A DNA stretch of 64,000 bases. Origin: Rhodobacter capsulatus (GTDB lineage Bacteria > Pseudomonadota > Alphaproteobacteria > Rhodobacterales > Rhodobacteraceae). Shown piece after piece: positions 49,499 to 64,000 of the stretch. Made by a program: the position numbers and the translations under genes. The stretch spans positions 142,820-206,819 of the forward strand of contig NZ_QKZO01000002.1 in NCBI RefSeq assembly GCF_003254295.1, in the 5' to 3' direction. The notes under the pieces are model-generated. The model was given only the letters and a program-made list of their open reading frames with translations. It did no database searches and was not told the origin of the DNA. Numbering within the stretch: position 1 is the first letter of the stretch; every line of letters starts with the position of its first letter.

Positions 49499-52400
49499 TC
49501 ACTCAAGCCCGATGGGACGGCGCAGGTCAAGGGTCAGCGGAAATTCCGGGTGCGGCGTCTCGGGGGCGGGGGCATAGGCGCCGGGGCTGTGGCCATGCGG
49601 CTCGAAGCGCGCCAGCCTGCGCGCCTCGGCCTCGTTGGCGTTGATGGGGAAGGTGTCGTAGCTGCGCCCGCCCGGATGGGCGACGTGATAGGTGCAGCCC
49701 GCCAAAGCCCGGCCCGACCAGCGGTCGTAGATGTCGAAGACCAAGGGCGTGTTCACCGGCAGCGTCGGATGCAGCGCCGCGGGCGGTTGCCAGGCCTTGA
49801 AGCGGACGCCTGCGACCGAGGTCCCCGCGGTGCCCGTGCGCGTCATCGGGACGGGTCTGCGGTTGCACATCACCGTATAACGGTCCTGATGCAGCGAGGT
49901 CAGCTTCACCTGCAACCGCTCGACCGAGCTGTCGGTATAGCGCACCGTGCCGCCGATCGCCCCGGTCTCGCCCAGCACATGCCAGGGTTCCAGCGCCTGG
50001 CGCAGTTCCAGATGCACCCCTTCGGCCTCGATCTGGCCGCAGAAGGGGAAGCGGAATTCCGATTGCGCCTCGAACCAGACCGGGTCGAAGTCAAAGCCAT
50101 GCGCGCGCAGATCGGAGAGCAGGGCGAGCAGATCTTCCCAAAGGTAATGCGGCAGCATGAAGCGATCATGCAGCACCGTGCCCCAGCGGACGGGGCGGCC
50201 GGTGACGGGCGCGTTCCAGCAGCGCGCGATCAGCGCCCGGATCAGCAATTGCTGCGCCAAGGACATGCGCGGATGCGGCGGCATCTCGAAGCCGCGGAAT
50301 TCGACCAGACCCAGACGGCCGGTGGGGCCATCGGGGGAATAGAGCTTGTCGATGCAGATCTCGGCGCGATGGGTGTTGCCGGTGACATCGATCAGCATGT
50401 TGCGCAGCAGCCGGTCCACCAGCCAGGGCGGCGGCAGGTTGCCGCCATGGACCGGATCACCGATCTGGGCGAGCGCGATTTCCAGCTCATACAAAGTGTC
50501 ATGCCGCGCCTCGTCGATCCGCGGCGCCTGAGAGGTCGGCCCGATGAACAGTCCCGAGAAGAGGTAAGACAGGCAGGGGTGGCGCTGCCAGATCAGGATC
50601 AGCGATTTCAGAAGATCGGGGCGGCGCAGGAACGGGCTGTCATTCGGCGTCGCGCCGCCGACGACGACATGGTTGCCGCCGCCGGTGCCGGTGTGGCGGC
50701 CGTCGATCATGAACTTGTCGGCGCCAAGACGCGAGAGCCGGGCCTCGGCATAGATCGCCTCGGTCGTGGCGACGCAATCCTCCCAGCTGTGCGCGGGGTG
50801 GATGTTCACCTCGATCACGCCGGGATCGGGGGCGACGCGGATCACGTTGAGCCGTGGATCCTGCGGCGGCGCATAGCCCTCGATATGGATGGGCAGGTTC
50901 AGCTCGGCCGCCGTCGCCTCGGCGCTGGCGATCAGGTCAAGGTAATCTTCCAGCGTGTCGCAGGGCGGCATGAAGAGACAGAGCCGCCCGTCGCGCGGCT
51001 CGATCGCAATCGCCGTGCGCACCGCGCCCGTGGCCGGATCGGCGCCCTGTGCCAAAAGCGCCCCCCGCTCGGTCGGATCGCTCTCGGTCCGGGTCGATTT
51101 CTGCTGATGCTCGGGGCTGACCGCAGGCAGGAAGGCCGCCTGTTCACGGGCTTCCTCGGCGGCAAGCCGGTCGCTCTCGGCCTGGATCTTCGCGCGCCGT
51201 TCCGCAATGGCGGCGCTGAAATCCGGCAGCGGCCCGACCTCGACGGTCGGATCGGCGGGATAGGAATAGGGATAGGATTCGGGGGGCACATGGGGCAGCG
51301 CGCCGAGCGGCAGGCGGAACCCCACCGGGCTGTCGCCGGGCACCAGGAACAGATGCCCCCGCCGCGGCTTCCACAGTTCCGAGCGCCAGCGCCGCCCCTC
51401 GGCCCGGCCCTGCCAGGGCTGGATCGGCAGTACGAAGCCCGAGGGCTCAGTCAGGCCGCGGTTGAAGACGCGGGCATAACGGGCGCGGTCCTCGGGGTTC
51501 TTCAGCTTCGGGTTTTCCGGGCTGACATTCGGCGGCAGGTTCGCCTCTTTCAGGATCCATTCGCCCGGGTCCTCATAGGCGGGCTGGGCAAAGATCGGGT
51601 CAAGGCCCAGGTGCGTGGCAAAGCTTTCCATGAAGCGCCCGGCCTCGGCGGGGCCGACCCCCGTGGCGGCATTTTCCCGCGCGATCAGATCGGGGTTTTT
51701 CCAGACCGGCGCGCCGTCCTGGCGCCAGTACAGCGAAAAGGTCCAGCGCGGCAGGCTCTCGCCCGGATACCACTTGCCCTGCCCGTAATGCAGAAAGCCC
51801 CCCGGCGCGAAGCGGGCCTGCAAGCGGCGGATCAGATCATCGGCCAAGGCGCGCTTTTGCGGCCCGACGGCCTCGGTGTTCCATTCCGGCGTCTCGAAAT
51901 CATCGACCGAAACAAAGGTCGGCTCCCCCCCCATGGTCAGCCGCACATCGCCCGCCCGCAAGGCGTCATCGACCCGGTGGCCCAGCGCATTCAGCCGCTC
52001 CCAGGCGGCGTCGGAAAAGGGCTTGGTGATGCGCGGATGTTCCGCCACCCGCTTGACCGTCATGTCAAAGGCAAAGCGCGTCTCGGGCGTGCCTGCGGCG
52101 GTGAAGCCCCCGGCGATCGGCGCGGCATTGCGGTAATGCGGCGTCGCGGCCAAGGGGATATGGCTTTCCCCCGCCAAAAGCCCCGAGGTCGGATCAAGCC
52201 CCACCCAGCCCGCGCCGGGCAGGAAAACCTCGACCCAGGCGTGCAGATCGGTGAAATCGACCTCGGTCCCCGAAGGACCATCGAGCGCCTTCACATCGGG
52301 GGCAAGCTGGATCAGATAGCCCGAGACGAAGCGGGCGGCAAAGCCCAGATGGCGAGCCACCTGCACCAGCAGCCACGAGCTGTCGCGGCACGAGCCGGAG

Positions 52401-52927
52401 GCCAGCCCCAGCGTCTCGTCGGGCGTCTGCACCCCGGGCTCCATCCGGATCGTGTAGCGGATTTCCCGCGCGATACGGGCGTTCAGCGCCACCAGAAAAT
52501 CGACGGTGCGGGTCTGGGTGAAATCCACCGTGCCGATGAACCGCGCCAGCCGCGGCCCCTCGGGCTCGGGCGTGCGGTAGATCGAGAGATCGTCGCGCAG
52601 GTCTTCGGGATAGTCAAAGGGCCAGGTCTCGGCGGTTTCTTCCAAAAAGAAATCGAACGGGTTGTAGACCGTCATGTCGGCGACCAGATCGACCTCGATC
52701 TTGAACTCGGTCACCGGCTCGGGAAAGACGAAGCGGGCCAGCCAGTTGCCATAGGGGTCCTGCTGGTGGTTCACGAAATGGTCGCCGGGCGAAACCTTGA
52801 GGCTGTGCGAAATCACCCGCGTGCGAGAGTGTGGGGCGGGGCGCAGCCGGATGATCTGCGGCCCCAACGTCACCGGCCGGTCGTAGACATAATGCGTCAG
52901 GTGATGGATGGATGCGTGGATCGCCAT
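49499..52927 (-). CDS. Transglutaminase/DUF2126 amidoligase-type protein
   Basis: 1142 residues. N-terminal transglutaminase domain with the Cys in [19 protein letters not shown], His in [17 protein letters not shown] and Asp in LDPTSG. A long DUF2126 region follows ([67 protein letters not shown]). DUF2126 belongs with COG4196. Family knowledge: predicted to form or edit isopeptide/amide bonds with the cpATP-grasp partner. First gene of the six-gene operon; ATG at 52925-52927. Divergent from the nosR-like gene by 175 bases. Confidence 0.92.
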
Positions 52928-53012
52928 GGTCTTCCCCCCGTGTTGCCCCGACTGTAGGAAGCCGGGCGGAGGATGCCATGGGAAACCGGCCCCGGCCGCG
53001 GGGCGGGCGGCG

Positions 53013-53035
53013 TTTTCCGGGCAACTGCCTGAAAA
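53013..53035. promoter_or_regulatory. Dyad in the divergent DUF2126/nosR-like intergenic
   Basis: TTTTCCGGGCA-AC-TGCCTGAAAA, an almost perfect dyad, 21 bases upstream of the ACCAAGGTCGAATAG motif. Candidate operator for either gene. Confidence 0.4.
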
Positions 53036-53055
53036 TTGGGCGCCGCGCGTCTTGC

Positions 53056-53070
53056 ACCAAGGTCGAATAG
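53056..53070 (+). promoter_or_regulatory. Shared motif ACCAAGGTCGAATAG upstream of the nosR-like gene
   Basis: It ends 32 bases before the start codon. The same 15-mer with one change occurs on the minus strand upstream of pedF (57637-57651), and a looser version before the ABC importer (57709-57723). Candidate binding site of a common activator. Confidence 0.5.
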
Positions 53071-53102
53071 GCAGCCTGTCCCGGCTCAAGCACAGTTGCG
53101 AC

Positions 53103-55148
53103 ATGATCCGGTTCCTGCTTCTTTGGCTGGCCTTCGCGACCCCGCTTTGCGCGGAGGTGCTGACGCGCGATGCGCTTTCCGCGCTGATCCTGGCGCCCTA
53201 TGAACTGGGGGAGCCGGTGAATGACAAGGGCGTCTGGACGCTTTTGAATTCGGGCGGGGGCGAGGCGGGATTTGTCTTTGAAACCGAACCCCTGGCGCCC
53301 TTGCCCGGGTTTTCCGGCGCGCCCGTCGACCTGCTTGTCCTGCTTGACCGCGAGGGGCGGTTCATCGACGTGCGGCTGCTGCGGCAAAACGAGCCGATCT
53401 TCGTGTCGGGTCTGGGCGAGGCGCCGTTCCGGGCTTTTCTGGAACAATATCGCGGCCATGCGATCACCGAGCCGCTGGTCGTCGGCACGCCCTATGGCGC
53501 GGGGGGCACGGCCTCGGACAATGTCTATCTTGATGGGGTGACGAAGGCGACGGCCTCGGTGCGGATCGCGCATGACTCGATCCTGGCGGCGACGCTGGCG
53601 GTCGCGCGCGACAAGATGCAGGGCGTGGCGGCAGGCCCCGCGCCAAGGCCAGATCTTGCGCATGACGAGGCCCTGTCGTGGAAAGATCTTCTGGATCAGG
53701 GGCTTGTTGGCCGGTTGCAGGTGACCGGGGCGCAGCTTGACGCGGCCTTTGCGGGCACGAAATGGGCGCAGGACGGCGCGGGCACCGACCCTGACGCGCC
53801 TTTCATCGACCTTTACGCGATCGACCTTGGCCCGCCCGCGCTGGCCCGGGCGGTGCTGGCCCCCGAGACTTTGGCCGAGATCGCCCGCTTCACCGCCCGC
53901 GCCCCCGATGACGAATTGATCCTGCTGATCGAGGCGGGGCAGCATGGGCTGGTCTCCGACGCCTTCGTGCGCAACACCGCGCCCGACCGGCTGACGGCGG
54001 TGCAGGACGGCCTGCCGCTGGTCTTGCGCGATGCCGACATCCTGCCCGAACTGGCCGCCGCTCTGCCGCCCGAGTTGAGCGAGGCGACGAAGATGGTGGT
54101 GCGGCTCGACCGCCGTCTGGGCTTCGATCCGACCCGGCCGTGGGAGCTGCGGCTGCAGGCCGTGCGCGAACACGGGATGTTTCAGGCCGAGGTCGGCTCG
54201 GCGCATTTTCCGCTCACGCTGCAGACGCCCGAGCGGTTTTTCCTGCGTCCCGCCGCGCCCGACCGGCTCAGCCCCTTTCACGTGGCGCTGCGCCATCGCG
54301 CCGCCGATCTTTGGGCGCTGGGCGGGTTTCTGGCGCTGTTGATGGTGGCGCTTTTTGCGCAATCGCGGCTGGCGGGGCTGCGCGCCTTCACCCCGGTGCG
54401 GCTGGGCATCCTGTCCGTCGTCATCGGCTTTGTCGGCTTCTGGGGACAGGGGCAGCTTTCCATCGTCACGGTGATGGCCGTCGCGCGCGGGCTGGTTGCG
54501 GGCGGGCTTGACGTGCTGCTTTATGATCCTTTCGGGCTGGCGGTCTGGGCGGCGGCGGGGATCGGCTTTCTGCTCTGGGGGCGGGGGTTCTTTTGCGGCT
54601 GGCTTTGCCCCTTTGGCGCGGTGCAGGAATTCGCCCATCACGCCGGGCGGCTGTTGCGCCTGCCGCAGATCGAGCCGCCCGCAAGCCTCGCCCGGGCGCT
54701 GCTCTGGACTGGTCCGATTGCTGCAACTGGACTTATCGCTGTGGCCTTCCTTGCCCCCCAACATGCGGAAGCGGCGGCGGAAATCGAGCCCTTCAAGACC
54801 GCGATCACGATGCATTTCGACCGCAACTGGCCCTATCTGATCTGGGCGATTGGCTGGATCGCGGTGTCGATGGTCTGGTTCAAGGGCTTTTGCCGCTCGC
54901 TCTGCCCCTTGGGCGCGGTGATGCGGCTTGGGGGGCTGATGCGGCTGCGCGCCTTCATCCCGCGGCGTGCGGACTGCGGCAAACCCTGCCAGCTGTGCCG
55001 CGTGCGCTGCGCCTATGGCGCGATCAAGCGCACCGGCGAGATCCGCTATTCAGAGTGTTTCCAGTGTCTTGACTGCGTTGCGATCCATGACGACAAAAGC
55101 CGCTGCGTGCCCCTGGTGCTCGCGGCGAAACGAAAGGCTCGGGCATGA
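53103..55148 (+). CDS. NosR/NirI-family FMN and polyferredoxin membrane protein
   Basis: 681 residues. A signal peptide (1-17) leads to a periplasmic FMN-binding domain with a flavinylation-type site DGVTKAT (144-150; target Thr150), then several membrane spans. Two CxxxCP motifs follow ([13 protein letters not shown] and [13 protein letters not shown]), then a C-terminal ferredoxin-like domain with [12 protein letters not shown] and [17 protein letters not shown]. NosR and NirI move electrons across the membrane for periplasmic reductases or act in their expression. No nosZ or nirS is seen here; instead PQQ-dehydrogenase accessory genes follow. Coupled to ApbE by ATGA. I call it NosR/NirI-like without a gene name. 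Confidence 0.9.
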
Positions 55149-55996
55149 AGCGGCGGCGGTTTCTGCAGATCGTGGCGGGGGCGGCGCTGATCGCCCAAGG
55201 CGCGCGGGCCGAGACCTGGACGGGCCGGGCCTTTGGCGCCGATCTGCGGATCACCGCGCCCGGCGCCCTGCCGCTGGCCGAGATCCACGCCGAGATCGCC
55301 GCGATCGAGGCGACGTTTTCGCTTTACGCCGACAGCGAATTGACCCGGCTGAATGCGACCGGCCGCGCTTCGGGCTCGGACCGGATGCGGTCCGTGCTGG
55401 CGGTGGCCCGGCGCGTGCATGACCTGACGCGCGGGGCGTTCGATCCGACGGTGCAGCCGCTTTGGCTTGCGCTGGCCGAGGGCCGCGATCCGCTGTTGCC
55501 GCGCGCGGCAATCGGCCTGCATCGGGTGCAGATCGGGCGGGACATCGTGCTTGCGCGCGGGCAGGCGCTGACGCTGAACGGCATCGCGCAGGGCCATGGC
55601 GCCGATGCGGTGGCCGGGATCTGTGCCCGGGCGGGACTGGGCGACTGTCTGATCGACATGGGCGAGTATCGCGCCCTGGGCGGGCCGTTCCGGCTGGGCA
55701 TCGCAGACCCCGAAGCCGGGCTGGTGGCAACGCGGATGCTGACGGACGGGGCGATGGCGACATCCTCGCCCGCCGCGATGGCCTTTCCGGGCGGCAGCCA
55801 TATCCTTGGCCCGCATGGACAAATTCCGCGCTTCTCGACGGTGACGGTGGCGGGCGCCAGTGCCACGCTCTGCGATGCCGCCTCGACGGCCTTCGTGCTG
55901 ATGCAGCGCGACGAGATCATCGCGGCGGCGCAAAGGCTGCGGCTGCGCGCGGTGACGGCGGTGGATTTTCAGGGCAATTTCGAGACGCTGGTCTAA
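55145..55996 (+). CDS. apbE: ApbE-family FAD:protein FMN transferase (NosX-like)
   Basis: 283 residues. The N-terminal RRRFLQ followed by a hydrophobic run looks like a Tat signal, as in NosX. The ApbE core shows FDPTVQPLW, LTLNGIAQGHGADAVAGI, DMGEYRALGG and MATSSPAAM. It attaches FMN covalently to a Thr or Ser, most likely to Thr150 of the coupled NosR-like protein. Ends overlapping the tail of the convergent XoxJ-like gene (sharing 55993-55996). Confidence 0.92.
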   Translation: MKRRRFLQIVAGAALIAQGARAETWTGRAFGADLRITAPGALPLAEIHAEIAAIEATFSLYADSELTRLNATGRASGSDRMRSVLAVARRVHDLTRGAFDPTVQPLWLALAEGRDPLLPRAAIGLHRVQIGRDIVLARGQALTLNGIAQGHGADAVAGICARAGLGDCLIDMGEYRALGGPFRLGIADPEAGLVATRMLTDGAMATSSPAAMAFPGGSHILGPHGQIPRFSTVTVAGASATLCDAASTAFVLMQRDEIIAAAQRLRLRAVTAVDFQGNFETLV

Positions 55997-56898
55997 CGCG
56001 CCGGCGCCTCGAAGCTGATCCTGTGATCGGCGAAGATCTGCGCGATCCGGCCATCGGCCAGCGCCGCGGCGATCGCATCGTCGACCGCATAGCCAAGGTC
56101 GCGATGCTGAAAGGACAGCGCCAGCCCCAGCGTCCAGCTGGGCCGTGCGAGCCCCAGCAGCGGCGGCGTGTGCACCCCGATGCCGGGGGCAAGATGGGCC
56201 TCAAGCTCGGCGCGCGGCCCCATCGCCGCGCTGACCTGATGTGCCGCAAGCCCCGCCATCGCCGCGCCCGTGGTTCTGTAGCGATGCACCTTGTCCGCCG
56301 CCGCCCCATGCGCCAGCGAGGTCAGGAAGAAATCCGAAAGCGAGTCATTCTCGACCCCCACCGGATCGTAGCGAAACACCGCAGGCACCGGCGCTTTGTC
56401 CGGATAGCTGGCCTTGTCATAGGCGATCGCCAGCCGCTCGGTCGCATATTGGCCGGTGAAGACGACCTGATCGAAGCGGCACGCGTAATCGACGTCATAG
56501 GGCACATGGCCCATGAGATCAGAGACATGCCCGCCCACCGCCGCGCCGCGATAGACATAGTTCAGCAGATCGGCATCGAGCGTCTCGCCCGGTTGCACCA
56601 GCCGGATCCGCGCCACCACCCCCAGATCGGCGGCGATCAGCCGGGCGATCTCGACATCGATGCCCTGCGGCCGACCGCCCTCCGCCCAGGACCAGGGCTT
56701 GTAGTTCTCATACAGCGCCACCTCGATCCAGCCGTCCTCGCGGATGCGGTCCAGGCTGCGGCCGATGTCCTGCGCGGGGCTGTTTTGCAGCTTCTGTTCG
56801 GGGGGCAGCCCCTCGCAGGCGGCCAGCGCAGCCAGCGGCGCCAGAGCGGCAAGCCCGCAGAGCAAAACCAGGGTCCAGATCCGCGCCGACAGGGTCAT
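55993..56898 (-). CDS. Quinoprotein-dehydrogenase-associated binding protein (XoxJ-like)
   Basis: 301-residue family-3-type solute-binding protein with a signal peptide (ends about ALAAC). Landmarks: GWIEVALYENYKPWSWAEGG at the first strand, GIDVEIARLIAADLGV, and a C-terminal DAIAAALADGRIAQIFADH. This matches the class found beside PQQ alcohol dehydrogenases (TIGR03871/XoxJ/MxaJ). MxaJ-type proteins are thought to activate the dehydrogenase rather than feed an importer. Coupled to pedF by ATGA, second in that pair. Confidence 0.82.
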   Translation of the reverse strand: MTLSARIWTLVLLCGLAALAPLAALAACEGLPPEQKLQNSPAQDIGRSLDRIREDGWIEVALYENYKPWSWAEGGRPQGIDVEIARLIAADLGVVARIRLVQPGETLDADLLNYVYRGAAVGGHVSDLMGHVPYDVDYACRFDQVVFTGQYATERLAIAYDKASYPDKAPVPAVFRYDPVGVENDSLSDFFLTSLAHGAAADKVHRYRTTGAAMAGLAAHQVSAAMGPRAELEAHLAPGIGVHTPPLLGLARPSWTLGLALSFQHRDLGYAVDDAIAAALADGRIAQIFADHRISFEAPAR

Positions 56899-57578
56899 TT
56901 CGCCGCCGACAGGCCCAGCGTCAGCAACTCGGCCGCGTGCTTGAAACTGGCCTTGTCCGCGCTCAGCACCTCGGCGGCGCGGCTGACCGTGCTGTCGGCC
57001 ACCGGCGCCCCGGAAAAGGTCTTCACCCCGGAATTGATCTGTTGCAGCTCTTCCTTGACCGCCACGCCATCCGCCGTGCCCGCCTCCAGATCGGCGACGA
57101 TCGCCCGCAGCCGGTCAGTGTGGCTGTCAAGCGCCCCGTCCTCGGGCCGGGTCTCGATATAGGTGCGGATCGCCCAGCCCGCCTTTTGCCCCAGCACCGG
57201 GCCAAAGGCGGGCATCTTCGTCGTGCCGTCCTGGGTGTAGCCGTGCTGGAACCGCTCGGCGAACCATTCATCGCCATATTCCTCGGCCTCGAGAAAGCGC
57301 AGATCCGGCGCCAGCCCCCCCGAAACCGCGCCCAGCCCATGGCAGCGCGCGCAATTCTGGTTGAAGCCGGAATCGCCGATCTTCACCGCCGCCTTCCAGA
57401 CCTCCTCGCCCGCCGTGTCGGCGCGATAGGGGTTTTCGGTCAGCCATTCCTCGCCCACCTCGGGCAGGGCATCGGTGTTCACCGGCTGCGGCGCCACATC
57501 GCCATGCGCCAGAAGCGGCCCCGGAAGACCGGCCAGCAGCAGGGCCGCAAGGAAACGGCGGTTGCGGACGTCGAGCAT
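56895..57578 (-). CDS. pedF: PedF-type c-type cytochrome of PQQ alcohol oxidation
   Basis: 227 residues: signal peptide cleaved after LLA (residue 24), one heme site C76-x-x-C79-H80 in NQNCARCHGLGAVSGGLAPD, and a Met-rich distal segment (TTKMPAFGPVLGQKAGWAIR). This is the cytochrome c550 family associated with PQQ ethanol/methanol dehydrogenases, the likely electron acceptor. ATG 57576-57578 follows AGGGAGAGAG. Shared motif upstream at 57637-57651. No dehydrogenase gene is in the window. Confidence 0.88.
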   Translation of the reverse strand: MLDVRNRRFLAALLLAGLPGPLLAHGDVAPQPVNTDALPEVGEEWLTENPYRADTAGEEVWKAAVKIGDSGFNQNCARCHGLGAVSGGLAPDLRFLEAEEYGDEWFAERFQHGYTQDGTTKMPAFGPVLGQKAGWAIRTYIETRPEDGALDSHTDRLRAIVADLEAGTADGVAVKEELQQINSGVKTFSGAPVADSTVSRAAEVLSADKASFKHAAELLTLGLSAAK

Positions 57579-57636
57579 CTCTCTCTCCCTAACGATCGGT
57601 GCTGCCAAGGTGGTAACGGCGCGGGCCTGTCCGCGG

Positions 57637-57651
57637 CCATTCGACCTTGGT
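57637..57651 (-). promoter_or_regulatory. Shared motif ACCAAGGTCGAATGG upstream of pedF
   Basis: 14 of 15 bases identical to the motif before the nosR-like gene, in the same orientation relative to its gene, 59 bases before the start codon. Confidence 0.5.
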
Positions 57652-57708
57652 CGGGGGGGGCGGGGTCTGCCGCGATCCTGCCCCAGCCGCGGTCGGGGGC
57701 GTATTGGC

Positions 57709-57723
57709 CATTGGTCTAATAGG
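57709..57723 (+). promoter_or_regulatory. Weaker motif copy upstream of the ABC importer
   Basis: CATTGGTCTAATAGG matches 11 of 15 bases of CCAAGGTCGAATAGG, 52 bases before the start codon. Weak on its own; listed because of the two better copies nearby. Confidence 0.3.
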
Positions 57724-57774
57724 AAGGCCGGGGGGGCGCGGTTAGCCTTTGCGCACCGAATGAGGGAGGAGACG

Positions 57775-58755
57775 ATGATCAGAATGACGCGCCGGGCCGC
57801 GCTGGCCTCGGGCCTTGCGGCGATGCTGGCCGGGGCCGCCCCCGCGCGGGCGCAGGATCTGCCGGTGCTGACCGTGGCGGCGCTGGAAGGCGGCACGGTG
57901 AGCTGGGAACTCGACACGATCCGGCATTACGGTCTGGACACCGCGAACGGGTTCCGGCTGCAGGTGCTGGCCGTCGCGGGCAACCCCGCGGCCGAGGTGG
58001 CGTTGCAGGGGGGCGCGGCCGAGGCGATCGTGACCGACTGGTTCTGGGTCGCGCGGATGCGCGCCGCGGGCAGGGATTTCACCTTCATCCCCTATTCGCG
58101 CGCGGTCGGCGGGCTTTTGGTCAGGCCGCAAGCGGGGATCGTCGATCTGACGGATCTGAAAGGGAAAAAGATCGGCATCGCGGGCGGGCCGCTGGACAAG
58201 AGCTGGCTGATCCTGCGCGCCTATGCGCGCCAGAAATACGGCATGGATCTGGCGAAGGAGACCGAGCAGGTCTTCGGCGCGCCGCCCTTGATCATGGAGG
58301 CCGCGCTTTCGGGCGAGGTCGATGCGGCGATCAACTTCTGGCATTTCGGCGCCAAGATGCAGGCGCGGGGGATGGAGACGCTGGTCTCGACCGCGGACGC
58401 GGCGACGGCGCTGGGGCTGGACCCGGAAACGCCGCTTCTGGGCTATGTCTTCTCGGAGCAGCTCGCGCAGGACAAGCCCGCCGCGGTGGCCGGTCTGCGC
58501 GCGGCTTCAAAGGCGGCCAAGGCGCTTCTGGCCAGCGATGACGCGGCCTTTGCCCGGCTGCGCGCGATCATGAATGCGACATCCGATGCGCAATATCTGG
58601 CGCTGGTGGCGGGCTATCGGGCGGGCATCCCGACCGATGCGCCGGTCGATGCGGCCGCGGCCGACAAGATGCTGAAGCTGATGGCCGGGATCGGCGGCGA
58701 GGAGCTTCTGGGCCCGGTCCGGGATCTGCCCCCGGGCACATTCCTGGCGAACTGA
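57775..58755 (+). CDS. ABC importer substrate-binding protein (ThiY/SsuA/NMT1-like)
   Basis: 326 residues with a Tat-like signal (RMTRRAALASGLAAMLAG, cleaved near ARAQ) and an NMT1/SsuA fold (DLPVLTVAALEGGTVSWEL, LKGKKIGIAGGPLDKSWLI, MEAALSGEVDAAINFWHFG). Family members bind HMP, sulfonates, nitrate or other small anions; the ligand here is unknown. ATG 57775 has TGAGGGAGGAGACG before it. TGATG overlap with the permease. Lies within the PQQ accessory region, so its ligand may relate to that system. Confidence 0.87.
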   Translation: MIRMTRRAALASGLAAMLAGAAPARAQDLPVLTVAALEGGTVSWELDTIRHYGLDTANGFRLQVLAVAGNPAAEVALQGGAAEAIVTDWFWVARMRAAGRDFTFIPYSRAVGGLLVRPQAGIVDLTDLKGKKIGIAGGPLDKSWLILRAYARQKYGMDLAKETEQVFGAPPLIMEAALSGEVDAAINFWHFGAKMQARGMETLVSTADAATALGLDPETPLLGYVFSEQLAQDKPAAVAGLRAASKAAKALLASDDAAFARLRAIMNATSDAQYLALVAGYRAGIPTDAPVDAAAADKMLKLMAGIGGEELLGPVRDLPPGTFLAN

Positions 58756-59582
58756 TGGTCAGCATGGCGCGCAAGCCGCAACCCGTCGCGGGGGGGGCGA
58801 TCATCGCCCCTTCTGCCATGCCGGGCGGGCGGGAATGGCGCGCGGTCGGGCGCACGGCGGTTTCGATCCTGGCGGCGCTGCTGCTTTGGGCGGCGATCGC
58901 GGCGGTGCTGGGCGATCCGTCCCATGCGCCCGGGCCGCAGCAGGTGCTGCCGCAGCTGGCCGAGGGGCTGGTCTCGGGGCGGATGCTGCCCGATCTGGGC
59001 GCGACGCTGGCGCGGGTGGGGGCGTCCTTCGCTCTGGCGATGCTGGCGGGGACGGTGCTGGGCATCGTGCTGGGCCTGTCGCGGCGGGTGAACGACTGGT
59101 TCGACCCCTGGCTGACGATCTGGAACAACATCCCGGCGCTGGTGCTGATCGTGCTGTGTTACCTCTGGATCGGGCTGAACGAGACCGCGGCGATCACCGC
59201 CGTCGCCTTGAACAAGGTGCCGCTGGTGGCGGTGATCCTGCGCGAGGGCGTGCGGGCGCGGGACCCGGCGCTGTCGGAAATGGCCCGTGTCTTCGGCATG
59301 GGATTTGTCGCGCGGCACCGCCATATCCTGATCCCGCAGCTGATGCCGCATCTGATCGCCGCGGCGCGGGCGGGGCTTTCGCTGATCTGGAAGGTCGTGC
59401 TGGTGGTCGAATTTCTGGGCCGCTCGAACGGGATCGGCTTTCGCATCCATCTGAATTTCCAGATGTTCGACATTGCCGGGGTGCTCGCCTGGGCGGCGGC
59501 TTTCGTCTGCGTGATGCTGGCCGTCGAATGGCTGATCCTGGCGCCGCTTTCGGGGCGGGCGAACCGCTGGAGACGGGAATGA
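58755..59582 (+). CDS. ABC importer permease (SsuC/TauC/ThiX-like)
   Basis: 275 residues, six membrane spans, with the EAA loop visible as RVFGMGFVARHRHILIPQLM, the site that docks the ATPase. The N-terminal 35 residues are polar and cytoplasmic. Coupled by overlap to the binding protein (TGATG) and ATPase (ATGA). Confidence 0.92.
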   Translation: MVSMARKPQPVAGGAIIAPSAMPGGREWRAVGRTAVSILAALLLWAAIAAVLGDPSHAPGPQQVLPQLAEGLVSGRMLPDLGATLARVGASFALAMLAGTVLGIVLGLSRRVNDWFDPWLTIWNNIPALVLIVLCYLWIGLNETAAITAVALNKVPLVAVILREGVRARDPALSEMARVFGMGFVARHRHILIPQLMPHLIAAARAGLSLIWKVVLVVEFLGRSNGIGFRIHLNFQMFDIAGVLAWAAAFVCVMLAVEWLILAPLSGRANRWRRE

Positions 59583-60172
59583 TCGCGCTTGATCTGACGG
59601 AAAAGCGCTTTGGCGCGACGGTCATTCTGGGCGCGCTGCGCCTGCGGGTCGAGCCGGGCGAGGTGCTGGGGATTGCCGGGCCCTCCGGCTCTGGCAAATC
59701 GACGCTGCTGCGCATCCTGGCCGGGGTGGACACGCGGTTTCGCGGCACGTTGCAGGGGCCAAGCCGCCGCGCGATGGTGTTTCAGGAGCCCAATCTGATG
59801 CCCTGGCGGCGGGTGGTGGACAATATCATCCTGCCGACCGGGGTCGATGCGGCAACCGCCGAGGCCTGGCTTTCCCGCGTCGGTCTGGCGGGCTATGGCG
59901 CGCATTGGCCGGGGCAGCTGTCGCTGGGTCAGGCGCGCCGGGTGGGGCTGGCGCGGGCCTTTGCGGCGCGGCCCGAGCTGCTCATTCTGGACGAGCCTTT
60001 CGTGTCGCTTGATGCGGGCCGGGTCGAGGAACTGCTCGAGCTGACGGCGGATCTGATCGCCGAGACGCGCCCGGCGGTGGTGCTGGCCTCGCATGCGGCG
60101 CTGGAGTTGGACCGGCTGGCCACGCGCCGCGCGCGGCTCTCGGGCCGTCCGGCGCGGCTGAGCGAGGGGTGA
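59579..60172 (+). CDS. ABC importer ATPase (short SsuB-like)
   Basis: 197 residues, shorter than the usual 240-260, but with Walker A GPSGSGKST, a Q-loop FQEPNLMPWRRVVDNI typical of nitrate/sulfonate importers, signature LSLGQARRV (LSGGQ with one change), Walker B LLILDEPF, and a switch His in VVLASHAA. Complete but lacks the C-terminal extension. Third gene of the importer operon. Confidence 0.92.
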   Translation: MIALDLTEKRFGATVILGALRLRVEPGEVLGIAGPSGSGKSTLLRILAGVDTRFRGTLQGPSRRAMVFQEPNLMPWRRVVDNIILPTGVDAATAEAWLSRVGLAGYGAHWPGQLSLGQARRVGLARAFAARPELLILDEPFVSLDAGRVEELLELTADLIAETRPAVVLASHAALELDRLATRRARLSGRPARLSEG

Positions 60173-60178
60173 CGATCT

Positions 60179-60200
60179 GGCCAAGGCCATCGCCTTGGCC
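60179..60200 (+). terminator. Hairpin after the ABC importer operon
   Basis: GGCCAAGGC-CATC-GCCTTGGCC, a perfect 9-bp stem 7 bases after the ATPase stop. There is no T-run, so termination is likely but not certain. Confidence 0.45.
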
Positions 60201-60357
60201 CTGCGGAACAGATGCCCCAAGACCGCCCAGGGCCCAAAGGCCCTCGGGCAGCGCCCGCCCCGCCCATGGCGGGCGCTTCTCGCCCGCCGGGCCGGGCGCT
60301 GCCCTCTGACATTGCTTGCGGAAGCGGTCTTGTCGCGGGCGTGGCGCTGGCGGGCGG

Positions 60358-60376
60358 GGAAAGGCGATGCCTTTCC
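60358..60376 (-). terminator. Hairpin after the ABC-2 operon
   Basis: GGAAAGGC-ATC-GCCTTTCC, 20 bases beyond the permease stop on the minus strand. No strong T-run. Confidence 0.4.
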
Positions 60377-60395
60377 TGATCCGCCCGATCCGGGC

Positions 60396-61199
60396 CTACT
60401 CCCCCTTCGGCCGCCGTGTCCGCGCCGGTTCATAGCCCCAAAGCGCCAGCGCGAAGAACACCGCCGTCGCCCCCGCCGTCACCGCCAGCGACAGCGCATT
60501 GCCTTGCAGATAAAGCGAAAACCGGATCAGCTCGACCGCATGGGTGAAGGGGTTGAGACGGCAGATCCAGGCCAGCGCGGGCGAGGCCTCCTGCATCTTC
60601 CAGATCGGGTAAAGCGCCGAGGACAGGAAGAACATCGGGAAGATCACGAAATTCATCACCCCGGCGAAATTTTCCAGCTGCCGGACCCGGGCGGACAGAA
60701 GCAGGCCAAGCGACCCCAGCATCAGCCCCGAAAGAAGCAGCGCGGGCACGGCGGCCAGATAGCCGAGCGGCGGCAGATGGATGCCATAAGCCCAGCCCAC
60801 GCCCAGAAAGACCGCCACCTGCACCAGCCCGACCAGCGCCCCCGCCAGCAGCTTCGTGCCCAGAAGGAACCAGCGCGGCCAGGGCGCCGTCAGCATCAGC
60901 CGCATCGTGCCGCTTTCGCGGTCATTGACCAGCGAAAGCGCGCTTTGCATGGCGGAAAACAGCAGGATCATCCCGCACAGCCCCGGCGCGATATAGGTTT
61001 CATAGGTGATATAGGTGCGATAGGGCGGAATGATCGACATCCCCAAAGCGGCGCGAAAGCCCGCGGCAAAGACGAAAAGCCACACCAGCGGGCGCACCAG
61101 CGCCGCCAGAAAGCGTTCTCGCTGGCTCAGGAACCGGGCCAGTTCGCGCGCCATGATGGCGCCTGCGGCGCGCAGGGCTCTGGTAGTGGCGGCCCTCAT
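60396..61199 (-). CDS. ABC-2 permease of a PQQ-dehydrogenase-associated transporter
   Basis: 267 residues, six membrane spans, ABC-2 fold (LARFLSQRERFLAALVRPLV start; ESGTMRLMLTAPWPRWFLLG amphipathic segment; GLLLSARVRQLENFAGVMNF; CRLNPFTHAVELIRFSLY). This matches the permease class found with PQQ-dependent alcohol dehydrogenases (TIGR03861 type) and, by gene order, LutF of the lanthanide-uptake cluster of Methylorubrum. Overlaps its ATPase as ATGA. Confidence 0.85.
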   Translation of the reverse strand: MRAATTRALRAAGAIMARELARFLSQRERFLAALVRPLVWLFVFAAGFRAALGMSIIPPYRTYITYETYIAPGLCGMILLFSAMQSALSLVNDRESGTMRLMLTAPWPRWFLLGTKLLAGALVGLVQVAVFLGVGWAYGIHLPPLGYLAAVPALLLSGLMLGSLGLLLSARVRQLENFAGVMNFVIFPMFFLSSALYPIWKMQEASPALAWICRLNPFTHAVELIRFSLYLQGNALSLAVTAGATAVFFALALWGYEPARTRRPKGE

Positions 61200-61918
61200 G
61201 CTACGGCTCCGGTCCGGGCCAGAAACCAGTCGGGCAGGGGTGTGGCGCCCCGCAAGCCGCCGACCGCGCCCGCGGCGGCGACGCGGCCGCGATGCAACAG
61301 CACCATGTCGTCGCTGTCGCGCAATTCATCGACCAGATGCGTCGCCCAAACCACGCTGATGCCGGTTGCGGCCAGATCATGCACATGCGCGGTGATCGCG
61401 GCGCGGGCGGGCGCATCCAGCCCCACCGTCGGCTCGTCGAGCAGCAAAAGCCGCGGCCGGTGGATCAGCGCGCGGGCAATCTCCATCCGCCGCCGGTGCC
61501 CGCCATTGAGCCTGCCGACTTTTTCCCCCGCCCGTTCCGCCATGCCAAGCCGGGTCAGGGCTTCCTCGATCCGGGCCTCGGTCTCGGGGCGCGTCAGCCC
61601 CTGCAGCGCCGCGAAATAGCGCAGGTTCGCCGCCACCGTCCGGTCCAGATCCTGCGTGGGCTGCTGGAACACCACCCCGATCCCGGCCAACGCCGCGCGC
61701 GGGGCGCGGCCCATGTCCACCCCCGCGACGCTCACCACGCCGGGGCGCGGCCGGATCAGCCCGGTCAAGACCGCCATCAAGGTTGATTTGCCCGCCCCGT
61801 TCGGGCCCAGAAGCGCGCAAAAGCGCCCCGCGGGCAGGGTGAAGCTGACGGCGTCAAGCGCGGTCTTCGCGCCCCAGCGATGGCTCAGCCCCGCGACGGC
61901 AAGGGCGGGCTCAGTCAA
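61196..61918 (-). CDS. ABC-2 ATPase of the PQQ-associated transporter
   Basis: 240 residues: Walker A GPNGAGKST, Q-loop VVFQQPTQDLDRTV, Walker B LLLLDEPTVGLD, and an unusual signature GRLNGGHRRRMEIARAL in place of LSGGQ, typical of the TIGR03864 family of PQQ systems (LutE-like). The start is uncertain: TTG at 61918 gives LTEPALAVAGLSH; an ATG at 61972 would overlap the upstream gene by 62 bases. I list the TTG. Confidence 0.87.
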   Translation of the reverse strand: MTEPALAVAGLSHRWGAKTALDAVSFTLPAGRFCALLGPNGAGKSTLMAVLTGLIRPRPGVVSVAGVDMGRAPRAALAGIGVVFQQPTQDLDRTVAANLRYFAALQGLTRPETEARIEEALTRLGMAERAGEKVGRLNGGHRRRMEIARALIHRPRLLLLDEPTVGLDAPARAAITAHVHDLAATGISVVWATHLVDELRDSDDMVLLHRGRVAAAGAVGGLRGATPLPDWFLARTGAVA

Positions 61919-62336
61919 TGGTGATCGCCAGACGCTGATCGGACCCTTTTGCCCCCGGGATTTCAAGCACATAAGACCCGGGCTTCACCGCGACGAAGCC
62001 GATTTCCATCGTGCCCGCCTGATCGAATTCGATCGAATGCAGCCCCATCGGGCGGATTTCCAGCCCCTCGATCACCACCTCGTCGACCCAGATCGCGCGG
62101 AAGAAATCGCCGCCCGAAAGCCCGATCTCGCCCGAGCCGTCGGCGGTGATCTCGACCTCGTAATAGCGGCCCGATTTCAGCGCCCAGGGCCCGCCCAAGG
62201 GCTCGCCGACCGAAAGCATCACCTCGGGCAGGGTCTGTTTGTTCGGCCCCGCCAGAAGGCCTGCGGGGGCGTCATCATCTTCGGCCAAGGCCGGGGTGGC
62301 CAAGGCAAGGGCGAGCAGCAGCGGGAAAAGGCGCAT
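61911..62336 (-). CDS. Exported beta-rich protein of the PQQ-associated cluster
   Basis: 141 residues: signal peptide MRLFPLLLALALATPALA, then a beta-rich domain with YYEVEITADGSGEIGLSGGD, MGLHSIEFDQAGTMEIGFVA, and KPGSYVLEIPGA. The end resembles a cupredoxin turn, but no Cys and no copper-ligand pattern is present. Unknown function; a protein at this position occurs in lanthanide/PQQ clusters (LutB-like by place only). It lies between the beta-propeller and ATPase genes, nine bases after the former. Confidence 0.75.
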   Translation of the reverse strand: MRLFPLLLALALATPALAEDDDAPAGLLAGPNKQTLPEVMLSVGEPLGGPWALKSGRYYEVEITADGSGEIGLSGGDFFRAIWVDEVVIEGLEIRPMGLHSIEFDQAGTMEIGFVAVKPGSYVLEIPGAKGSDQRLAITID

Positions 62337-62344
62337 GGGAACTC

Positions 62345-63307
62345 CTATTGCGGGGTGGGGCGGGCGGCGGCCCCCCAGGGGAAGCGGCCGACCTTGATCG
62401 TGGCAAGGGGCTCTAGCGTGGCGAGGTCGATCACCGTCACATCGCCTGAAACCCCGTTCGTGGTGAAAAGCCGGGTCTGATCGGGCGAAAGCGCCATGTG
62501 CCAGACGCGGCGGCCGACCATGATGTAGCGCTCGACCTGCAGGGTCTTGGCATCGACCACGGCCAGATGGTTGGCGGGGCCGAGCGCCACGAAAACCCGG
62601 GCGGCATCGGGCGAGAACCTCATCCCCACGGGTTGCAGCTTTTCCGCCCGCACGCCCGGAATTTCAAAGGAAATCTTGCCCTTCTCGGTCTGTGTTGCGG
62701 CATCGAACACCGTCACCGTGCCGCCGATTTCGGAACTGACCCAAAGTTCCGCGCCATCGGGAGAAAATTCGGCGTGCCGCGGGCGGCTGTCGACCAGCGT
62801 GTTCGCGACGATCCGATGCGTCGCCGTGTCGATCCAATGCGCCATGTTGGTGGTTTCCGAGGTCGTCACCTGCAGCTTGCCGTCGGGGGAAATCCCCATC
62901 CCCTCGGGCTCGACGCCGACATCGATCTGCGCCACCACAGAGCGGCTTTGCGTGTCGACGACGGTGGTGATCGCGTCATCCTCGTTCGCGATGTACAAAA
63001 GCCGGTCATCGGGGGCGAGCACGAATTGCTCGGGGTCCTCGCCCGAGGGCAGGTCATGCAGGATCGCCCCGGTGTCCGGGTCCATCACCTGCACCGCGTC
63101 GCTGTCCGAGGCGCAGATGTAAAGCCGCTTGAAATCGCGCGAAAAGGTGATGCCGCGCGGGCGTTCGCCGGTGGGGTAGGTGGCCTTGACGGCCAGCGTC
63201 GCCACGTCGATCACGCTCACCGTGTCGTCGGATTCGTTCGTCACCCAGATTTCATCGGCCATCGCGGGCGTGGCGAGCAAGGTGGTCAGCAAAAGGGCGC
63301 GGATCAT
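62345..63307 (-). CDS. YVTN beta-propeller protein of the PQQ-associated cluster
   Basis: 320 residues with a signal peptide (MIRALLLTTLLATPAMA) and about seven repeats of the YVTN type (VTNESDDTVSVIDVATLAVK, IANEDDAITTVVDTQSRSV, VSSEIGGTVTVFDAATQTEK, FTTNGVSGDVTVIDLATLEP). This is the PQQ-dependent catabolism-associated propeller (TIGR03866), LutD-like by order. ATG at 63305-63307 overlaps the stop of the binding protein (ATGA). Exported, function unknown. Confidence 0.87.
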   Translation of the reverse strand: MIRALLLTTLLATPAMADEIWVTNESDDTVSVIDVATLAVKATYPTGERPRGITFSRDFKRLYICASDSDAVQVMDPDTGAILHDLPSGEDPEQFVLAPDDRLLYIANEDDAITTVVDTQSRSVVAQIDVGVEPEGMGISPDGKLQVTTSETTNMAHWIDTATHRIVANTLVDSRPRHAEFSPDGAELWVSSEIGGTVTVFDAATQTEKGKISFEIPGVRAEKLQPVGMRFSPDAARVFVALGPANHLAVVDAKTLQVERYIMVGRRVWHMALSPDQTRLFTTNGVSGDVTVIDLATLEPLATIKVGRFPWGAAARPTPQ

Positions 63308-64000
63308 AGATTGGCTCCGAAGGCTTTGCACAGGGTTTCGGGGCGGTCGGTGCCCAGCGTGTCAAGTTCGTTCGTCTGGTGCAGGAAGCCTTCCAGCGGG
63401 GCCATCGCCACCACGGCGCGCTCGGTCACCAGCGGCATCGGCTGGCGCATCTGCCCGTCCCAGGGGCGGAAGCTGACCGGCTGGCCGAGGAAGGCGGCGA
63501 TCCGCGCCTTGTCCGAAAGCAGGAAGCTGCGCAGGTCCGCGGGATCGGCGGTCCCTGTGCGGGTGCGCGCATCCGAAATCGCGGCGATGGCGGCCCAGGC
63601 CGAGAAATCCGCGTCCTGCATCGGGCGGCTTGCGGTCTGGCGAAAGCGCACTTGCAGCTGTGCTGCGCCGTAGTCTTCGACCACCTCGGTCCAGCCTTTC
63701 GCACTCAGCCCCTCGGAGCCCGCGACGGGGCGCGGCAACCAGGTGTTGAAGGGGATGTAGCGGGCGAAATCGCCGCGTTCGTCGGCCACAAGCAGCAGGT
63801 CATGTTCGGGCAGATCTTGCGTGAAGAGCGGCACCTCGGCCGCGCCGGACCGGCGCATGTCGGCAGTGAGCGGCCAGTCCTTTTCGCCCGCAAGCGTCAG
63901 GCCGAATTTCGCCAGGCTGGTTTTCAGCGCCGCGGCAAAGGCGCGGTCCTCGGGCTGCGGGCCGGTGATCAGCGCAAGGCTTTGCCAGCGTTTCGCCCGC
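63304..64000 (-). CDS. PQQ-associated ABC substrate-binding protein (TIGR03863-type), 5' cut by window
   Basis: The frame is open to the right edge: 231 residues of the C-terminal part with WQSLALITGPQPEDRAFAAA, DLLLVADERGDFARYIPFNT, FSAWAAIAAISDARTRTGTA and a C-terminal ETLCKAFGANL. This matches the ABC binding component of PQQ-dependent alcohol dehydrogenase systems (LutA in the lanthanide cluster). An internal ATG at 63858 is not the start. Coupled to the propeller gene. Confidence 0.8.
   Translation of the reverse strand, partial: RAKRWQSLALITGPQPEDRAFAAALKTSLAKFGLTLAGEKDWPLTADMRRSGAAEVPLFTQDLPEHDLLLVADERGDFARYIPFNTWLPRPVAGSEGLSAKGWTEVVEDYGAAQLQVRFRQTASRPMQDADFSAWAAIAAISDARTRTGTADPADLRSFLLSDKARIAAFLGQPVSFRPWDGQMRQPMPLVTERAVVAMAPLEGFLHQTNELDTLGTDRPETLCKAFGANL

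Follow-up and report, generated by a model that had tools for sequence, protein, structure and literature searches.

A NosR-like flavin/iron-sulfur protein and its ApbE partner accompany a predicted lanthanide-type PQQ alcohol dehydrogenase cluster in Rhodobacter capsulatus and its relatives

What is a relative of NosR, a protein of nitrous oxide reduction, doing among genes for alcohol oxidation? The question is raised by a window of 64,000 nucleotides from Rhodobacter capsulatus (contig NZ_QKZO01000002.1, positions 142,820 to 206,819, handled as G000:C2:142820-206819; a window position equals the contig position minus 142819). Its last part encodes a NosR-like protein (NosR-L) of the flavin mononucleotide (FMN)/polyferredoxin type together with an ApbE homologue, and these genes adjoin accessory genes of an alcohol dehydrogenase (ADH) that depends on pyrroloquinoline quinone (PQQ). 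The original prediction, made from the sequence of the window, held that NosR-L might be a membrane flavin/iron-sulfur (Fe-S) conduit that supplies electrons to, or takes them from, this quinoprotein system. Three genes are central:

53103-55148, + strand: NosR-L, an FMN/polyferredoxin membrane protein of 681 aa (open reading frame with family profile matches)
55145-55996, + strand: divergent ApbE-family FAD:protein FMN transferase (Pfam PF02424, 125.1 bits, above the cut-off of 25.6)
65794-67761 (window-equivalent, past the window's end), + strand: PQQ ADH, longest frame (TIGR03075, 771.3 bits, cut-off 480)

The end of NosR-L and the start of ApbE overlap by 4 bases. Relatives of the host ADH align from about position 65974, as against the longest-frame start at 65794.

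Within the family, occurrence of NosR-L together with the ADH cluster is near-obligate and goes far beyond chance. A survey of 394 family genomes, with the ADH clade defined at an identity of at least 74%, found this clade in 79 genomes and NosR-L in 81; the ADH clade was present in 77 of the 81 NosR-L genomes, and NosR-L in 77 of the 79 genomes with the ADH clade (Fisher p 3e-74; kinship is uncorrected and inflates all p values given here). The exceptions are G020, G122, G191 and G198 as well as G147 and G216, of which G198 has a 70% ADH match beside NosR-L after all, while completeness is 73-81% in G122, G147 and G198. The proposed tie between the NosR-L/ApbE pair and the quinoprotein system is borne out. 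The TIGR03863 marker of PQQ-associated clusters was detected in 77 of the 81 NosR-L genomes, in 60 of them within 25 kb on one contig. Inspection of 80 named NosR-L loci with flanks of up to 10 kb, some of which end at contig edges, revealed ApbE in 76, a PedG/XoxJ-like gene in 67, the gene for cytochrome c-550 PedF in 65 (some truncated), TIGR03863 in 64, a beta-propeller in 63, an importer permease in 43 and the ADH in 26. The closest of these loci include Sinirhodobacter hankyongi and Rhodobacter aestuarii, where the identity of NosR-L is 79%. Six annotated plasmids all carry NosR-L, ApbE, the PedG/XoxJ-like gene, PedF, the propeller, a TIGR03863-type gene and the ADH; the ABC-2 pair is present in five of them and the importer in four.

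Is NosR-L simply NosR? Its score of 410.1 bits against the NosR profile NF046105 lies below the cut-off of 1000, and because of this score and because it falls into a clade of its own, we class NosR-L as a homologue of NosR rather than NosR itself. Both proteins comprise an FMN-type periplasmic domain, membrane helices, two CxxxCP motifs and two C-terminal 4Fe-4S motifs, and NosR, like NosR-L, has an ApbE partner. In the window's NosR-L, the FMN-type domain bears the motif DGVTKAT and is joined by a second periplasmic domain; the membrane helices are predicted. The flavin motif and Fe-S cysteines of NosR are present in NosR-L, with Lys replacing the Gly of SGAT. Indeed, the twelve Fe-S cysteines, i.e. 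those of the two CxxxCP motifs and eight C-terminal ones, and the last Thr of the flavin motif are invariant in 36 NosR-L sequences. The flavin motif reads DGVTKAT in 69 of the 80 named loci, DGVTKGT in nine and DGVAKAT in one (one unread), but IISGAT in 4/4 nosZ-linked NosR proteins. Among the matches listed for the 394 genomes, two identity groups emerged, one at 50-100% (the 81 NosR-L genomes) and one at about 30-36%, which is nosZ-linked: 62 of its 67 listed members are located within 10 kb of a nosZ propeller match. By contrast, none of the 82 NosR-L places has such a match within 25 kb. The host genome contains none at all, in line with the absence of nosZ from the locus noted in the original prediction, which had named a nosZ or nir cluster adjoining in other genomes that lack any PQQ dehydrogenase as evidence to the contrary. 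nosZ occurs elsewhere in 20 of the 81 NosR-L genomes, which is about the background rate (100/394). A role in denitrification, with NosR-L serving nosZ, was therefore rejected. In a midpoint-rooted tree of the window's protein and 29 fetched ones (30 in all), ADH-linked proteins and other NosR proteins separate, the split being supported at 1.0 on one side and 0.96 on the other. A third NosR-like group (L086, L087, L100), possibly NirI, forms its own branch; its motif is IISRAT and its members lie at least 15 kb from nosZ. An AlphaFold model of NosR-L (pLDDT 75, pTM 0.55) yielded no match in the PDB at E <=0.001. Its best match was RnfG, the FMN subunit of Rnf, in five rows with probabilities of 0.96-1.00 and E values of 0.02-0.14 amid immunoglobulin-like noise; searching the PDB sequences with a NosR-L profile gave no match.

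The partner enzyme bears the marks of a lanthanide enzyme. The host ADH is nearest to solved quinoprotein ethanol dehydrogenases (6zcv, 5e-254), contains the adjacent Cys pair and has the active-site motif WDFDG (D-x-D), whose second Asp beside the catalytic one we take to be the mark of lanthanide enzymes. D-x-D was found in all 43 clade ADH matches with a readable motif, out of 52 matches, some of them redundant. Going by this motif, the host ADH is a predicted lanthanide-type enzyme of the ExaF/PedH kind.

Taken together, we favor the reading that NosR-L and ApbE are a dedicated accessory module of this type of ADH, which would send electrons outward for maturation or protection of the quinoprotein; we assign it a probability of roughly 0.4. 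The quinol pool of the membrane or a donor in the cytoplasm would feed electrons into the Fe-S clusters of NosR-L, which would pass them on to the periplasmic FMN. From there they may serve a reductive step that matures or protects the quinoprotein, at the vicinal disulfide or at PQQ itself. NosR-L would thereby take the place of a SoxYZ-like carrier and a zinc metallohydrolase, in some cases with a rhodanese, that are encoded in other D-x-D ADH clusters. We consider this outward conduit the best reading because NosR-L is often found where SoxYZ, SoxH and rhodanese are missing, and because three of the five characterised ApbE-flavinylated systems described in the available part of PMC8238504 (Nqr, Rnf, nitrous-oxide respiration, organohalide respiration and Gram-positive electron export) send electrons to an outside acceptor.

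The reciprocity with SoxYZ, which is new and partial, is seen outside the family. A class sample of 190 genomes contained four besides the host with a close ADH. NosR-L is present in G420 and G566; G443 and G560 lack it and encode a SoxYZ-like carrier (TIGR04557) and a metallohydrolase beside the ADH. Ten D-x-D plasmid loci were chosen among 60 listed of 106 ADH records. Those of Novosphingobium (2), Sphingobium and Azospirillum (3) carry SoxYZ and metallohydrolase without NosR-L, those of Aquabacterium and Variovorax (2) NosR-L and ApbE without SoxYZ. In all, 16 D-x-D ADH loci outside the family comprise eight with SoxYZ and zinc metallohydrolase, seven with NosR-L/ApbE, none with both and one with neither; the three Azospirillum loci are close kin, as are the two of Variovorax. 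Six more named loci (L114, L116, L120-L122, L124), outside the family going by their names and likewise found via NosR-L, show no SoxYZ in the available stretch. Within the family, TIGR04557 gave no match above cut-off in 45 of the 61 NosR-L genomes tested, that of the host among them. Rhodanese genes are annotated next to SoxYZ in the loci of Novosphingobium ES2-1, Sphingobium and Ponticoccus, and none in the two annotated Azospirillum loci. SoxYZ is not specific for lanthanide enzymes, since clusters of D-x-S ADHs may carry it as well (present in L096, L098 and L211, absent from L212 and L097). According to the available text of PMC12997753, SoxYZ, SoxH and rhodanese may act in disulfide formation, cofactor stabilisation or shielding of PQQ from sulfur nucleophiles, and the role of these genes beside lanthanide-dependent dehydrogenases is open in print. 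A broader and more tentative proposal, against which we would put the odds, is that two unrelated modules, either a thiol/sulfur relay made up of SoxYZ-like carrier, SoxH-like metallohydrolase and sometimes rhodanese or the NosR-L/ApbE flavin/Fe-S conduit, might do the same job for lanthanide quinoprotein dehydrogenases, namely reductive maturation or protection at the vicinal disulfide or PQQ. If the two modules do replace each other, each helps explain the other.

Several observations weigh against an outward conduit that stands in for SoxYZ. The direction of the electron flow through NosR-L rests on analogy, and its donor and target are inferred. The structural model is mediocre and the likeness to RnfG weak (best E 0.02). 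Flavinylation of NosR-L is uncertain because most ApbE homologues lack the Asp of the HxxDP motif, a metal-site residue: it is lost in 63 and kept in 11 of 74 sequences including the window's, the position being occupied by His in 31, Gly in 23, the window's ApbE among them, and Asp in 11. With this loss in most members, ApbE of the NosR-L clade looks unusual for a flavin transferase. Of the seven outside loci with NosR-L, those of Shinella and Ciceribacter were first found via NosR-L; without them the tally is SoxYZ 8, NosR-L 5, both 0 and neither 1 (n=14). The locus with neither module, in the 42 kb read, is that of Sinorhizobium fredii NGR234 (L209). Inside the family, SoxYZ and NosR-L are not exclusive, as 16 of the 61 NosR-L genomes exceed the TIGR04557 cut-off. 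The corresponding genes lie within 15 kb of a second TIGR03863 gene in eight genomes, within 5 kb of NosR-L in four, beside the main cluster in one and elsewhere in three; two of the second-TIGR03863 loci were read (L079, L080) and encode ADHs of 35-36% identity. SoxYZ stands beside NosR-L in three of the 80 named loci, in addition to the ADH-side cluster L067 and the TIGR03863-side cluster L072, and in four of 108 NosR-L loci, some of which are from the same genomes. Strict mutual exclusion was rejected on account of these exceptions inside the family.

The main rival reverses the flow. In the available part of Meheust et al. 2021 (eLife, PMC8238504), a flavinylated NapH-like protein of an exaA cluster is proposed to take electrons from the ADH to the respiratory chain and so to do a cytochrome's work. 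That protein is likewise a flavinylated polyferredoxin in a PQQ-ADH cluster, and the association is probably the same one; going by the name, the 'Rhiobacillus thiooxidans' of that study could be identical with the Ciceribacter thiooxidans of our locus L200. Such an exit path would make the cytochrome dispensable. However, PedF is usually kept: besides the 65 of 80 named loci it is found in two of three betaproteobacterial loci and in 12/12 TIGR03863-side clusters of genomes where NosR-L lies apart, i.e. eleven split genomes and G031 (ADH recognised in 9/12 stretches). One Variovorax locus accords with an exit path: V. boronicumulans has NosR-L and a high-potential iron-sulfur protein (HiPIP) adjoining the ADH, with PedF absent from the stretch examined, and this is the only place where PedF is missing with a replacement in view. 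Transfer to a flavin acceptor lying below PQQ in potential would be uphill. Replacement of the cytochrome by NosR-L is accordingly not supported, and we regard the exit path as unlikely. As to the layout of the Variovorax locus (L208), it is plasmid-borne, with NosR-L, ApbE and pqqBCDE near the ADH and the HiPIP gene after it.

The split genomes (L042-L052), in which NosR-L and TIGR03863 are more than 50 kb apart or sit on different contigs, show what travels with NosR-L. ApbE was recognised beside it in 10/11 and the importer permease in 6/11, and these two came out when families recurring beside stand-alone NosR-L in at least three loci were listed. In exactly those six genomes the other cluster carries the importer's binding protein and ATPase without a permease, so that one importer is shared by two places; in the other five, importer genes are found at neither place.

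The remaining genes of the cluster are the following, with window-equivalent positions beyond 64000:

55993-56898, - strand: family-3 periplasmic binding protein in PedG/XoxJ position (PF00497, 33.2 bits, cut-off 26.4)
56895-57578, - strand: cytochrome c-550 PedF (TIGR04494, 185.9 bits, cut-off 122)
57775-58755, + strand: PqqT-type PQQ-binding periplasmic protein, SsuA of the original prediction (sequence and fold matches to PqqT)
58755-59582, + strand: ATP-binding cassette (ABC) importer permease, formerly SsuC (family profiles)
59579-60172, + strand: ABC importer ATPase, formerly SsuB (family profiles)
60396-61199, - strand: ABC-2 permease, PedC-like (PF01061; named after the table in PMC12997753, as available)
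61196-61972, - strand: ABC-2 ATPase, PedB-like (PF00005)
61911-62336, - strand: small protein kept in the cluster, signal-like N-terminus by eye (recurs in 46/80 named loci)
62345-63331, - strand: PQQ-associated beta-propeller, PedA2-like (TIGR03866, 521.9 bits, cut-off 287.3)
63304-64000, continuing past the window, - strand: TIGR03863 binding protein, PedA1-like, 3' part (whole gene 493.4 bits, cut-off 413.6)
64582-65130, + strand: sel1-like gene (from reading past 64000)
65238-65630, + strand: c-type cytochrome (from reading past 64000)
67918-72096 (L004 4738-8916), + strand: ErdR-, NosP- and NahK-like genes after the ADH, each below its NCBIfam cut-off

The genes predicted within the window, from NosR-L and ApbE through PedF, the importer and the ABC-2 pair to the propeller and the TIGR03863-type protein, are thus confirmed in place by reading frames and profile matches. 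The start of the ABC-2 ATPase is uncertain, as its frame overlaps the adjacent small-protein gene, for which NCBIfam returned no match. The gene in PedG/XoxJ position gave only a weak SBP_bac_3 match and no XoxJ entry among its PDB matches; its sequence leaves the XoxJ-like label unconfirmed, and its position fits PedG/XoxJ.

The expected resemblance to lut/ped accessory clusters of PQQ-ADHs holds: TIGR03863 and TIGR03866 score above their cut-offs next to the ABC-2 pair, and the cluster encodes a predicted PedA1A2BC/Lut-type transporter of putative lanthanide uptake. The ped cluster of Pseudomonas putida, as far as PMC12997753 was available, likewise comprises pedA1A2BC, pedF, pedG, the lanthanide ADH gene pedH and NosP/NahK/ErdR-type regulators, but it has the rhodanese PP_2666, the SoxYZ-like PP_2677 and the SoxH-like PP_2678 where the window's cluster has NosR-L and ApbE. 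This setting brings up metal handling, in which NosR-L would reduce periplasmic Fe(III), Cu(II), Ce(IV) or a metallophore complex and so release or discriminate the lanthanide. The D-x-D motif of the ADH and the PedA1A2BC-type transporter, described as a lanthanide transporter in the available text of PMC12997753, are in keeping with such a role, and so is a TonB receptor gene, found next to ApbE in Variovorax and some 8 kb away from NosR-L in Thioclava. However, none is annotated in the other five annotated clusters read, and most lanthanides are not redox active. Six TIGR03863 genomes without NosR-L were read at the locus (L074-L078, L081), and in five the ADH found has 35-37% identity; enzymes of D-x-D type at these loci are served in the absence of NosR-L. 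We therefore rate metal handling as improbable.

At the ADH end, the cluster closes with the ErdR-like gene and the NosP-/NahK-like genes, the latter a putative nitric-oxide-sensing pair. NosR-L could likewise be a redox sensor that controls expression of the ADH cluster, as was once proposed for NosR, and the NCBIfam NosR model is still named 'transcriptional regulator'. Yet the cluster already includes this regulator and these sensors, and the conserved Fe-S cysteines and flavin motif are as expected for electron transfer, which makes a sensor the least probable of the roles weighed here.

The importer had been called SsuABC-like, a label that we replace. Its binding protein matches PqqT of Methylorubrum extorquens in sequence (phmmer 6.7e-60); the best solved structures are 9b1u, 9b1v and 9ooz, all titled as PqqT with PQQ, and Foldseek gave a TM (template modelling) score of 0.92 by target length and 38% identity for 9b1v. 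A Lys taken for K142 of PqqT is kept in 18/18 sequences, if, as seems to be the case, chain residue 115 of 9b1u corresponds to K142; mutation of K142 alters the metal affinity of PqqT (PMC12828617, part available). On these matches the importer is of PqqT type and its binding protein a putative PQQ binder; a sulfonate/taurine importer was rejected. Different from M. extorquens, the permease and ATPase genes reside in the ADH cluster and the genome has neither pqqC nor pqqE above cut-off. The original prediction had suggested looking for xoxF/exaA and pqq genes beyond position 64000 and comparing the neighborhoods of the NosR-like clade; a PQQ-ADH gene does adjoin, and the neighborhoods, too, turned out in favor of the prediction. 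A search for pqqC gave no match in the host and was positive in 43 of 80 NosR-L genomes, and the best pqqE score was 41 bits, as compared to 555.8 in a genome of the same genus. Since neither gene exceeds its cut-off, the host is probably a PQQ auxotroph or scavenger despite its encoded PQQ-ADH. The same-genus genome G046 has both pqqC and pqqE.

PQQ supply was counted over 80 of the 81 genomes chosen for having NosR-L (G122 left out): pqqC only in 22, PqqT only in 35, both in 21 and neither in two (Fisher p 5.6e-6). NosR-L is therefore tied to neither supply route. This bears on a role as PQQ uptake helper, in which NosR-L would reduce PQQ so that the PqqT transporter can take it up. In 36 of the 80 named loci the gene diverging from NosR-L is that of the importer permease (in eight it is pqqB), and in the six split genomes mentioned above the permease stays with NosR-L. 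However, the 22 genomes with pqqC and without PqqT disfavor a role in import only, and a PqqT-type importer occurs in two Azospirillum ADH clusters that lack NosR-L, so that we give this idea little credence. Some bacteria, it would seem, use scavenged PQQ for their rare-earth alcohol oxidation.

In view of Meheust et al. 2021, the basic idea of a flavinylated conduit in a PQQ cluster is not wholly new. The lanthanide motif, the near-obligate co-occurrence, the link to PqqT and the SoxYZ reciprocity go beyond section 17 of PMC8238504, the part at hand. Among the best matches listed in literature searches, none described experimental work on a flavinylated NosR-like protein encoded in a PQQ cluster, and neither these matches nor the available parts of PMC11334425, PMC11996626, PMC13088180 and PMC12997753 connected NosR-like proteins with PQQ or lanthanides in any further way; the words NosR, ApbE and flavin are not found in the main text of the last. 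If the accessory-module reading is true, NosR-type proteins have a wider role, one that extends beyond the supply of a terminal reductase to the upkeep of a dehydrogenase. NosR-L would then serve an oxidising enzyme, which we know of no other NosR-family protein to do.

Some minor observations concern the surroundings. Upstream of NosR-L, a long reading frame at 49499-53104 on the - strand (1201 codons, by eye transglutaminase-like) points away from NosR-L; taken at full length it shares two bases with the start of NosR-L, and the real start is probably more internal. The alcohol-oxidation cluster is often plasmid-borne in Thioclava, Sulfitobacter and Pseudosulfitobacter (L036, L038, L041 and others), and the S. 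pontiacus plasmid carrying it was typed as conjugative. A molybdenum (Mo) hydroxylase is not an obligate partner of NosR-L, as its large subunit is encoded in only 33 of the 80 named loci. In many relatives, a set for such a hydroxylase of the xanthine/CO dehydrogenase family, often with CoxG, is inserted between ApbE and the PedG/XoxJ-like gene (e.g. L038 17996-22269, L041, L056, L059, L061) and perhaps provides an aldehyde-oxidising next step.

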